From a virus: DNA of 36,425 bases. Below are positions 185-36,425 of this stretch, piece after piece. The notes under the pieces are model-generated. The model was not told the origin of the DNA, searched no databases, and saw only the letters and a list, made by a program, of their open reading frames with translations. The position numbers and the translations under genes were made by a program. Each line of letters opens with the position of its first letter. Position 1 is the first letter of the stretch. Location of the stretch: the IMG/VR virus record IMGVR_UViG_3300028399_000018, positions 1-36,425 of that record; one strand, given 5' to 3'.

Positions 185-358
185 CTATTCGCGTTTTGGC
201 ATGTACCCTTTACAATGTTCAGGCTTTCTTCTCGACCCCACTTTTTCAAAAAATCCCCACAACTGAAATATGTCAGGGCGTGTTCCACTGTCGATGTGAC
301 GTTTGCACTTTTCTTTGTACGGGCATTTGTCATCGTCGCACATGCAGAAGTTAGGCAT
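185..358 (-). CDS. Small Cys-rich protein in the lysis cassette (57 aa)
   Basis: The 57-residue frame starts with ATG (GGGGAG five bases upstream) and ends in TAG just before the Rz start. It has five cysteines: a CMC pair with two more in the pattern CPYKEKC near the N-terminus, and one near the C-terminus (HCKGY). There is no membrane segment. The Cys/His spacing suggests a small metal-binding fold, but I do not recognise a family. The gene is absent from the second copy of this region at 35829-35836, where the holin-like stop and the Rz ribosome site are fused. That makes it a cassette-like, swappable gene. Its function is unknown; its place between holin-like and spanin genes makes a lysis or host-takeover role possible. 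Confidence 0.7.
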   Translation of the reverse strand: MPNFCMCDDDKCPYKEKCKRHIDSGTRPDIFQLWGFFEKVGSRRKPEHCKGYMPKRE

Positions 359-360
359 AA

Positions 361-570
361 CTACTCCCCTGTATCGTCTGTATTAATGTTTGTTTTGTTA
401 TCAGAAACAACCTGCACAGTCCGCTTAATACCCCACATTCCTGCCGCAGCGCCCACAGCCATCATCCAGGTTGCGCCGTCGATGTATTTCAGGAATAGTG
501 CGACAGTCGCAGTAATAAAGATCGCTGTGCCGAAAAGGTACGTCCTGTTTTTGTCGTAAAACTCGCGCAT
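361..570 (-). CDS. Holin-like small membrane protein (copy 1)
   Basis: The protein has 69 residues with two hydrophobic stretches (about 11-27 and 34-48) joined by a short KYIDGATW turn, and a charged C-terminus. Such a hairpin is typical of small class II-like holins, which open the inner membrane for the endolysin. It lies four genes after the amidase-spanin block begins, and a near-identical protein is encoded at 35836-36036. ATG follows an AAGGG site that overlaps the end of the preceding gene. It could equally be a pinholin or antiholin. The call rests on size, topology and position. Confidence 0.6.
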   Translation of the reverse strand: MREFYDKNRTYLFGTAIFITATVALFLKYIDGATWMMAVGAAAGMWGIKRTVQVVSDNKTNINTDDTGE

Positions 571-827
571 TACTTCACCCTTTTCAAAATATCATACAGA
601 ATACGCCGGTTGTGCCTGATCTCTTTCTTGTTATCGTTGATCAGGTCTTTGAGCGCGTCTGTCTTTTCATAGATCAGTTTACGGTTTTCCTTGCTGTACC
701 GGTGATTCGCCTGTCTCTCGGCCAGGGCATTGCCGTAGATCATGGTTATTGTAGTCACGCCACCAAGCACCAGCGTGGCGAGGTAAATCCAATCTTTGAA
801 GGTAAAGTCTTTGAATAGTGGCCGCAT
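570..827 (-). CDS. Membrane-anchored coiled-coil protein, possible holin/antiholin
   Basis: The 85-residue protein has an N-terminal amphipathic segment, one membrane span (about residues 13-33) and a highly charged helix to the C-terminus. The gene sits between the amidase and the two-span holin-like gene. ATG overlaps the amidase stop region, with GGGGA upstream. This one-span, long cytoplasmic helix layout occurs in some phage holin partners and antiholins. The last 13 residues are repeated, identical in protein, at the extreme right end of the window, where they precede the release-factor-like gene instead. Confidence 0.55.
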   Translation of the reverse strand: MRPLFKDFTFKDWIYLATLVLGGVTTITMIYGNALAERQANHRYSKENRKLIYEKTDALKDLINDNKKEIRHNRRILYDILKRVK

Positions 828-828
828 C

Positions 829-1251
829 TCATATCCCCAACCGCTCGTCTAAAAATTCTCGCACATCGAAACTCGGACAGGCTTTTTTAACTCCCGGAAA
901 GTCGCGATGTCCTAAAATCTCCGCTTCAGGAAAGTCTGATTTTAAAGAACCAAGCAGCTCGAACATTGTTTGAATCTGCTCATTAGTATAGTTCATTTCA
1001 GGCTTTCCGTACTTGCTCACCCCGCCAGCAAGAGCAATGCCTATTGAATGTTTATTGTAACCCTTAACATGCGCACCGATCTTTTCAAGCGGTCTGCCGT
1101 ATTCCAGCGTGCCGTCGCGGCGTATCACGTAATGATAGCCGATATCGCTCCACCCTTTTTCTTTGTGCCACCGCCTTATCTCTTTCACACCGATATCAAG
1201 GTCAGGTGGCGTGGCGGTTGCGTGGATGACGATGTGTTTTATTGTGCGCAT
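829..1251 (-). CDS. Endolysin: N-acetylmuramoyl-L-alanine amidase (Amidase_2 / T7 lysozyme type)
   Basis: The enzyme cuts the bond between the sugar strand and the stem peptide of peptidoglycan. The 140-residue single domain has the T7-lysozyme layout: zinc ligand H10 in VIHATA, GYHYVI at 38-43 carrying the catalytic-type tyrosine, H115 in GHRDFPG, and K123/C125 in KKACP (third ligand). There is no signal peptide or cell-wall-binding domain, so it needs a holin for export. Length is close to T7 lysozyme (151 aa). The neighbours are two small membrane proteins and Rz/Rz1, completing a lysis cassette at the end of the late operon. The stop of the upstream gene overlaps its start (ATGCGC at 1251). 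Confidence 0.9.
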   Translation of the reverse strand: MRTIKHIVIHATATPPDLDIGVKEIRRWHKEKGWSDIGYHYVIRRDGTLEYGRPLEKIGAHVKGYNKHSIGIALAGGVSKYGKPEMNYTNEQIQTMFELLGSLKSDFPEAEILGHRDFPGVKKACPSFDVREFLDERLGI

Positions 1252-35323: not shown

Positions 35324-35620
35324 TCACCTCTTGTAGTATTTCCTACACAACACCACCTTGTCATTAGCACGCTTCAACGCACTACCGAGCCGGTTTGTAA
35401 AGCTTAGTAAGTCGCCAACGGTGGACCCGCGCCACGCCGGTACGGGTGTTGGTGTCACGCAGTAAGCCGGTGGTTTCTCTCTTACGACCTTTACCGTAGT
35501 TGTCCCGCAGGAACTTAATAATACCGGCAGGCAAACGAGTGCTAAGGGCTTTGCGTACCTGCTTACTTTTTCGCGCCAGCATCTTGATTGTTTCTGCTTG
35601 TTGCTCCAATTCTTTTTCAC
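35324..35620 (-). CDS. Rz1-like outer-membrane lipoprotein (o-spanin), nested in Rz
   Basis: The frame begins with GTG at 35620 (GAGG seven bases upstream) inside the Rz gene in another frame. The first 37 residues are basic and then hydrophobic, ending in a lipobox LLSSC with C38 as the lipid site. The mature part is Pro-rich (PPAYCVTPTPVPAW), typical of Rz1, and it extends past the Rz stop. Together with Rz it joins the two membranes for final lysis. The pairing of frames is a hallmark of embedded spanins. Its presence implies a Gram-negative host. Confidence 0.8.
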   Translation of the reverse strand: MKKNWSNKQKQSRCWREKVSRYAKPLALVCLPVLLSSCGTTTVKVVREKPPAYCVTPTPVPAWRGSTVGDLLSFTNRLGSALKRANDKVVLCRKYYKR

Positions 35621-35828
35621 GCTGCAACCTCTTCTCTTCAGACTCTTTAATCAATTCATTCAGCCTTTCGTTTCTTTCACGCTCCTGCTTGTAGGACTTC
35701 GCTAGAATCTCCGCCGACATCCGCAGCTCTGCATTCTGCTGCAGCAGATGTTTGATATACAGAGCACCCGCCACGATCACTGCAATCAAAATTAGATAGA
35801 ACTTCAGCTTCCCCAGTAGTGTTAGCAT
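35382..35828 (-). CDS. Rz-like inner-membrane spanin (148 aa)
   Basis: The complete copy of the i-spanin. One membrane span (about 8-25) is followed by a long charged coiled coil (about 30-100) and a basic C-terminus. ATG follows AGGTGA. It hosts the Rz1 gene in another frame. The first part of the gene differs from the left-end copy (variants near the start), then becomes identical. The two copies suggest different strain versions. Confidence 0.85.
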   Translation of the reverse strand: MLTLLGKLKFYLILIAVIVAGALYIKHLLQQNAELRMSAEILAKSYKQERERNERLNELIKESEEKRLQREKELEQQAETIKMLARKSKQVRKALSTRLPAGIIKFLRDNYGKGRKRETTGLLRDTNTRTGVARVHRWRLTKLYKPAR

Positions 35829-35835
35829 AAGTCAC

Positions 35836-36036
35836 CTATTCATCATTACTGCTCTCCACCTTGTTATCCGACACAACCTGCACAGTCCGCTTAATACCCC
35901 ACATACCTGCCGCCGCAGTTACAGCCATCATCCACGTTGTGCCGTCAATATATTTCAGGAATAGTGCGACAGTGGCAGTGATAAAGATACCTGCGCCAAA
36001 AAGATAGGTTCTGTTTTTGTCGTAGAATTCACGCAT
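35836..36036 (-). CDS. Holin-like small membrane protein (copy 2)
   Basis: This two-span, 66-residue protein is nearly the same as the left copy, with changes in the hairpin (GAG for GTA, T for A, VTAA for VGAA) and a different C-terminal tail. I choose ATG 36036 since it aligns with copy 1 and has AAGG upstream inside the release-factor-like gene. An upstream in-frame ATG at 36057 would add seven residues. Function as for copy 1. Confidence 0.6.
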   Translation of the reverse strand: MREFYDKNRTYLFGAGIFITATVALFLKYIDGTTWMMAVTAAAGMWGIKRTVQVVSDNKVESSNDE

Positions 36037-36388
36037 GAGCCTTTCTTCTCTCTTCAATCATTTTACTAATGTCCCTATCTATTACAACCTCTTTGTATGT
36101 CTGATGAAATCCTGAAAGGTGGTCCCTGACATCATTCCTTACAGCGTGATATGTCCTGATTACTTCTGAAGTCGTTCTGCGCTCTTTTTTAACTGCAAAA
36201 TGTGAGCGTATACGTGACTCAAGACGTTCTATCGCAACACGCTTGTTTTGCTCGCGTGATCTGCTTTCTGTGCCTTGTGCTTTTAACCCAGTCACAAGGC
36301 AAGTAACACGGCAACAGTTTGCGTGTTTGTTTCTGTGCTGACCGCCTTTTCCGGTTCCCGAAAACCACTCAATCTTTATGTCTTTCAT
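36029..36388 (-). CDS. GGQ-motif release-factor-like protein (119 aa)
   Basis: The protein carries the peptidyl-tRNA hydrolysis signature SGTGKGGQHRNK (GGQ at 15-17), followed by the family's CRVTCLVTGLKAQGTESRSREQNKRVAIERL segment and a helical tail (IRTYHAVRNDVRDHLSG) that resembles the end of RF1/RF2. The stop-codon recognition domain is absent, as in ribosome rescue factors like ArfB or PrfH-type proteins. It lies between a membrane-coil gene and the holin gene of the lysis cassette. A rescue or termination role is inferred. One residue is inserted before GGQ compared with the common GAGGQ. Confidence 0.75.
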   Translation of the reverse strand: MKDIKIEWFSGTGKGGQHRNKHANCCRVTCLVTGLKAQGTESRSREQNKRVAIERLESRIRSHFAVKKERRTTSEVIRTYHAVRNDVRDHLSGFHQTYKEVVIDRDISKMIEERRKAHA

Positions 36389-36425
36389 TTTACCCTTTTC
36401 AAAATATCATACAGAATACGTCGGT
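36385..36425 (-). CDS. End of second copy of membrane-coil gene, cut by window edge
   Basis: The last 13 codons (…RRILYDILKRVK, stop TGA) match the protein end of the gene at 570-827. The bases differ slightly and the stop is TGA instead of TAA. It is truncated by the window edge. It overlaps the release-factor-like start (ATGA). Confidence 0.8.
   Translation of the reverse strand, partial: RRILYDILKRVK

Follow-up and report, generated by a model that had tools for sequence, protein, structure and literature searches.

A short gene encoding a release factor (RF) protein with a GGQ motif was found close to the 3′ end of an IMG/VR virus contig of 36,425 bases (IMGVR_UViG_3300028399_000018), the whole of which was analysed and is referred to here as the window. 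The gene and the lysis genes at the two ends of the window, all located on the minus strand, are listed in Table 1.

Table 1. Positions of the RF gene, its motifs and the lysis genes in the window
Feature	Position	Strand	Evidence or remark
Small Cys-rich ORF between holin-like gene and Rz, 5′ allele only	185..358	minus	absent from 3′ allele
Holin-like gene, 5′ allele, no RF gene upstream	361..570	minus	reading and end alignment
Upstream TM gene	570..827	minus	phrog_1350 holin, E 9e-4
Endolysin (Amidase_2)	829..1251	minus	PF01510, E 1.4e-18; phrog_822, 212 bits
Rz1-like putative outer spanin, overlapping ORF with lipobox (LLSSC)	35324..35620	minus	ORF reading
Rz-like spanin	35382..35828	minus	phrog_89, E 7e-6
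Holin-like small membrane protein, 3′ allele	35836..36036	minus	two hydrophobic segments by reading
RF stop/holin-like start overlap, 8 nt, ATGCGTGA	36029..36036	minus	sequence
Mini release factor gene	36029..36388	minus	119 aa, ATG start; RF-1/GGQ domain and RF C-terminal segment
C-terminal RF hairpin RTYHAVRNDVRDHLSG, residues 78–93	36110..36157	minus	phmmer alignment to RF1; equivalent of RF1 RTYNFPQNRVTDHR
GGQ catalytic motif, residues 15–17	36338..36346	minus	translation; invariant in 44 sequences
AAAAGGG, likely Shine-Dalgarno site of RF gene	36393..36399	minus	within 3′ end of upstream TM gene

The two ends of the record (1–610 and 35652–36425) are diverged alternative alleles of one lysis region. 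They align in three blocks, 1–190 with 35652–35841 (94.7% identity), 395–570 with 35861–36036 (86.4%) and 574–610 with 36389–36425 (94.6%), and the RF gene sits precisely between the second and third blocks, in the 3′ allele only. The record most likely represents a circularly permuted genome of about 35.65 kb that was assembled from two strains. Upstream of the RF gene, the 3′ allele is read for 37 nt, which repeat the last 37 nt of the TM gene at 36389–36425, and the rest of the upstream cassette is implied. A preliminary description of this DNA had placed the gene beside a holin gene, reported its absence from another variant and called it an accessory; the three-block alignment bears out the position and the absence, presence in one allele only agrees with an accessory gene, and the variants have to be corrected to the two ends of a single record.

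The junctions of the RF gene coincide with stop and start codons. The TM gene of the 5′ allele ends in TAATG and thereby overlaps the holin-like gene at its start; the TM stop codon of the 3′ allele is overlapped instead by the ATG of the RF gene (ATGA). The AAAAGGG site precedes the RF gene in the 3′ allele and the holin-like gene in the 5′ allele, and GAAAGG at 36040–36045, within the 3′ end of the RF gene, is the likely ribosome site of the holin-like gene that follows. This neighbour does adjoin the RF gene, as had been described, with the correction that its start is the ATG at 36036, which produces the 8-nt overlap; the ORF list gives an earlier TTG start at 36057. It is 86% identical over 176 nt to its counterpart in the 5′ allele and has no PHROG match. 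Judged from these overlaps, the RF gene forms a clean cassette that is translationally coupled and occurs in one allele only. The small Cys-rich ORF of the 5′ allele, for which no family match was found in Pfam or PHROG, represents a further insert of this lysis region that is confined to one allele. No close relatives of the holin-like, TM and Rz genes of the window were found in IMG/VR, so that occupancy of the lysis slot is not traceable in close kin. The 80 best relatives of the window endolysin all lack an RF gene within 4 kb, and nothing similar to the window DNA was found among GenBank phages.

The RF protein, which begins with MKDIKIEWFSGTGKGGQHRNKHANCCR, is matched by the Pfam RF-1 model (PF00472) with 56.2 bits (E 4e-15), above the curated cut-off of 35 bits. 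The RF-1-domain PHROGs phrog_20323 (E 1.8e-11) and phrog_3122 (E 4e-7) match the GGQ part only, and the C-terminal half lies outside both profiles; no lysis-family PHROG (holin, endolysin or spanin) is among the matches of the protein, the fold of which is that of an RF. In a PDB sequence search, RF1 chains were aligned with residues 2–112, and within this span residues 75–112 align with the C-terminal segment of RF1 (SEKIRTYNFPQNRVTDHR in RF1); the RF C-terminal hairpin and helix are retained (RTYH..RN.V.DH.SG). With only 14 residues ahead of the GGQ motif, the protein has neither the RF N-terminal domain nor domain 2, which reads the stop codon, and it has no PxT or SPF motif. A split RF, with the codon domain encoded elsewhere, was considered, and no second RF-1 gene exists in the window record. 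The ORF and its GGQ motif are thus as first described, and the view that a phage-borne RF-1/GGQ protein is encoded here is supported; the proposed lack of a codon-reading domain is confirmed for domain 2, but the protein extends beyond the GGQ domain, since it keeps the C-terminal (domain 4) segment.

An AlphaFold2 model built from 44 family members (mean pLDDT 85.7) has an RF-like fold, in which the block containing the GGQ loop is itself modelled with low confidence (pLDDT about 60). Foldseek matched the model to RF2 (E 3e-7) and RF1 (E about 1e-6). In the VIA structure comparison, the top match was PrfH on a damaged ribosome (Z 8.7, residues 1–69), and many RF1 and RF2 chains were matched across residues 1–119 (Z 7–8.4). 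The full-span superposition on RF1/RF2 has an rmsd of about 9 Å, which suggests that in the model the relative placement of the GGQ part and the C-terminal part differs from that in RF1/RF2. Of the outcomes that would have told against the preliminary description, neither the lack of an RF-1 match nor a fold unlike that of an RF was observed.

A search of IMG/VR with a two-sequence profile identified 384 relatives, and a second profile identified 374, largely overlapping the first set. In the family alignment of 44 sequences, 22 residues are invariant, namely W8, S10, G13, G15, G16, Q17, R19, N20, K21, N24 and C25 in the N-terminal part and G34, R45, N48, A52, R78, Y80, N85, V87, D89, S92 and R114 in the remainder, and every one of them is kept in the window copy. 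PF00472 matches all 44 relatives, as do the PHROGs phrog_20323 or phrog_3122 (44/44), and each of the 38 virus records tested contains exactly one RF-1 gene. The distance from the glutamine of the GGQ motif to the RxY motif is 61 residues in the window protein and 61–66 residues in nearly all relatives (72 in one), compared with 72–73 residues in RF1, RF2 and the scorable cellular short RFs. The net charge of the last 25 residues is +1 in the window protein, with a family median of 0 (range −3 to +3). A profile scan of 84,980 species genomes recovered two close members only (L087 and L088), both on MAG contigs, and no family members were recognised among 50,697 GenBank phage records; the family looks viral and, so far, uncultivated.

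Several known factors resemble the protein in part. ArfB (YaeJ, ICT1) and the phage mini RF are both small GGQ proteins in which domains 1 and 2 are missing, and ArfB acts independently of the codon; however, ArfB senses the empty mRNA channel through a basic C-terminal tail, whereas the phage mini RF has no such tail and carries an RF-type C-terminal hairpin in its place. The NCBIfam ArfB model gives 22.9 bits (E 5e-5) against a cut-off of 100. ArfB is not among the top Foldseek and VIA matches listed for the RF model, an absence to which no weight is given. C12orf65 (mtRF-R), another small GGQ factor (structural match 7a5h, Z 7.3), is a basic-tailed mitochondrial protein that acts on split large subunits. 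The GGQ domain and C-terminal segment of RF1 and RF2 align end to end with residues 1–119, but the phage mini RF is without domains 1 and 2 and its linker is about 10 residues shorter; the stretch between GGQ and RxY, shortened in the phage family, is that in which the RF1 switch loop lies. The RF1 and RF2 models give 51 and 46 bits, respectively, against cut-offs of 400 and 370. PrfH, also an RF without the N-terminal domain, provides the best structural Z score (see above), and its NCBIfam model gives 44.3 bits against a cut-off of 166.65. PrfH retains a form of the codon domain and is partnered by RtcB (PMC6514570), whereas the phage mini RF has no codon-domain remnant, no N-terminal region before the GGQ domain and no RtcB partner found. 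The RF protein is assigned to neither ArfB nor PrfH, though its mode of action may be similar.

The closest cellular sequences to the phage family are short RF1-like factors (xWFSGTGxGGQHRNKHxN, RTYR..D..V.DH.TG), which form a distinct cellular group in the species-genome scan (L004, L089–L091, L093 and L095–L097). They occur in Alpha- and Gammaproteobacteria, mostly Alphaproteobacteria, are about 140–200 aa long as read, and are apparently uncharacterised. The frames read have no N-terminal domain, as in the phage family; where they are complete enough, they have a domain 2 with RVPPTEKRGRVHTST (a PxT-like codon-reading motif, PPT), which the phage family lacks, and their linker has the full 72 residues, in contrast to the shortened phage linker. 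Four of these factors score 122–150 bits, each with its best RF1 model, and the group scores far below the RF1, RF2 and PrfH cut-offs. In the RF tree, several inner forks of which are open, the cellular short RFs are the nearest cellular group, and the fork uniting them with the phage family has a support of 98/96. The phage family would most simply be a reduced RF of the cellular short RF1-like type.

The position of the RF gene among small and mid-size phages is variable: it lies three genes upstream of the terminase small subunit in L012 and, by inspection, before terminase-like genes in L002 and amid structural-looking genes in L008. Most family members lie away from lysis genes, and no conserved partner gene was found beside the RF gene. 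One further lysis cassette contains the gene (L020), in the order phrog_822 amidase, two small membrane-protein genes, RF gene, and Rz-like gene with a nested Rz1-like lipobox ORF; because L020 and the window belong to different subclades and use different slots, lysis placement probably arose twice. L007 was also considered as a lysis-cassette case and was not counted, its neighbours matching only unknown PHROGs.

Large phages, on contigs of up to 374 kb, have the RF gene inside tRNA arrays that comprise as many as 28 tRNAs, and in at least eight of these loci the gene is flanked on each side by a tRNA no more than 25 nt away. A tRNA lies within 100 nt of the RF gene in 11 of the 24 tRNA-bearing loci (2.0 expected from random placement) and within 500 nt in 16 of the 24 (7.0 expected), figures that are descriptive, as the 24 loci share ancestry and are not independent events. 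A tmRNA was identified 0.8–4.6 kb from the RF gene in six loci (L062, L069, L070, L077, L084 and L086). All six are of the permuted or betaproteobacterial type, score above the Rfam thresholds and lie in tRNA-bearing regions of large phages; ARAGORN calls five of them, with tags ending in ALAA (e.g. ANDDVYALAA). The count includes only ARAGORN calls and above-threshold hits of the permuted, beta and alpha tmRNA models. Large phages also gave RF00023 hits below threshold, which were not counted because tRNAs cross-match RF00023; an 82-nt RF00023 match in L036 was likewise left out. A phage SmpB was not found in the 38 records, and neither tRNA nor tmRNA was found in the window phage. RtcB is present in 2 of the 38 records and absent from the window, and a pairing of the PrfH–RtcB type was therefore rejected as a rule for the family. 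In L060, on a jumbo phage contig (G026), the RF gene (334833) and RtcB (337721) lie about 2.6 kb apart, near a tRNA array.

The gene is probably best understood, in our moderately confident view, as encoding a virus-type mini RF, a codon-independent peptidyl-tRNA hydrolase that would rescue stalled ribosomes and that is carried by the window phage as an accessory cassette. The protein would enter the A site of ribosomes halted by a truncated mRNA or by a cleaved or missing tRNA, and its GGQ motif would hydrolyse the peptidyl-tRNA with no need for a stop codon, so that the freed ribosomes would return to viral translation. The conserved C-terminal hairpin is the likely ribosome contact, in place of the ArfB tail. 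In the window phage, the cassette would have landed between two lysis genes and become coupled to them via the stop/start overlaps; late synthesis is predicted from this coupling and from the place in the lysis cassette, and the enzyme would act alone in this phage, which has no tRNA.

Ribosome rescue, as proposed in the preliminary description, is supported by association, namely by the relatives within tRNA arrays, some of them with a phage tmRNA, and this setting supports a role in sustaining translation during infection. The intact GGQ motif, the RF1/RF2/PrfH fold, the 22 invariant residues, the missing codon-reading domain, the shortened linker and the clean cassette in one allele also speak for the mini RF reading. 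Genes for RF-1, Pth and tmRNA have been noted in the tRNA arrays of mycobacteria and mycobacteriophages, with a possible part in rescue (PMC5966550), and phage tRNAs have been proposed to counter host anticodon nucleases, a tRNA-cleaving defence (PMC10264068); the association of the present family with tRNA arrays and tmRNA fits both proposals. Several points count against rescue: the recognition step lacks an explanation, as there is no basic tail of the ArfB type; the window phage has neither tRNA nor tmRNA; and the tRNA enrichment does not come from independent events, as the array loci share ancestry. A broader proposal, which we put forward tentatively, is that of a virus-only class of codon-independent RFs whose C-terminal hairpin would recognise halted ribosomes, deployed together with tRNA arrays and tmRNA against tRNA- and mRNA-cutting defences and, in small phages, mobile as a cassette that may even enter a lysis operon. 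If active, the protein would be a minimal ribosome-rescue enzyme that many uncultivated phages carry and whose recognition element differs from those of ArfB and PrfH, and tRNA arrays, tmRNA and rescue factors would become directly testable as one package aimed at defences that target translation; the RF gene in the lysis cassette would show movement independent of the tRNA/tmRNA package.

A narrower form of the rescue explanation is a PrfH-like damage-specific factor that would release peptides on ribosomes halted by host anti-phage nucleases, whether by anticodon cleavage in tRNA or by nicking of rRNA, and that would form one arm of a counter-defence built on tRNA replacement. The relatives inside tRNA arrays, the proposed role of phage tRNAs against anticodon nucleases (PMC10264068), the top VIA match to PrfH on a damaged ribosome and the RtcB gene 2.6 kb from the RF gene in one record are consistent with such a factor; we nevertheless regard it as unlikely, given the presence of RtcB in only 2 of 38 records, the missing PrfH codon-domain remnant and the window phage having no tRNAs. 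Ordinary termination, in which an extra GGQ donor would act with a host partner to raise late-infection termination or recycling, appears very unlikely: domain 2 and the PxT and SPF motifs are absent, the stretch of the RF1 switch loop is shortened and no conserved partner gene adjoins the RF gene, although the RF C-terminal segment is kept along with GGQ. Neutral cargo or a contig-end assembly chimera, with no role in the window phage, is scarcely probable either; the RF allele shows only 37 nt of upstream sequence and the neighbouring lysis genes have no close IMG/VR relatives, but the window copy retains all family-invariant residues and its junctions fall precisely at stop and start codons. 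Lysis timing, altered through translation of the overlapping holin-like gene or through action on lysis proteins, is the least probable role, since the overlapping position between two small membrane-protein genes, and that of the L020 gene, which is flanked by a membrane-protein gene on one side and an Rz/Rz1-like pair on the other, are set against a family found in many settings and mostly away from lysis genes, 80 endolysin relatives with no copy within 4 kb and a GGQ enzyme with no evident specificity for lysis genes, and the tuning of lysis timing suggested in the preliminary description is thus not supported. A cis effect of the RF insertion on translation of the overlapping holin-like gene is possible.

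Annotated stand-alone phage RF-1 proteins are already known (phrog_20323 and phrog_3122; mycobacteriophages and phages of Acinetobacter and Tunturiibacter), and those of phrog_20323, phrog_3122, mycobacteriophages and Tunturiibacter phages resemble the present family in having a GGQ domain alone in a phage; matches to them span the GGQ part only, and one example, L006, differs in its C-terminal part, which has no RTYH..DH.SG hairpin. Huge phages carry release factors, tmRNA and SmpB (PMC7162821), and a survey of RF evolution does not use the word “phage” (PMC6514570). Relative to the open-access literature, a viral subfamily with a retained hairpin and a shortened linker appears to be new, as do its scale, its tRNA-array and tmRNA setting and its allele-specific placement in a lysis region. 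Some GenBank phage hits were rejected as phage RFs: the unannotated MT836128 and MT837562 contain, when read, near-complete bacterial prfA- or prfB-like genes, their gene content pointing to probable host sequence in the phage collection, and several other hits either carry a prfA/prfB annotation or cover RF1/RF2 with similar identity. OR847103 and OR845826, which are filed as phage, match RF genes at the ordinary RF1/RF2 level. The mycobacteriophage and Tunturiibacter phage hits in GenBank are genuine short RF-1 proteins.
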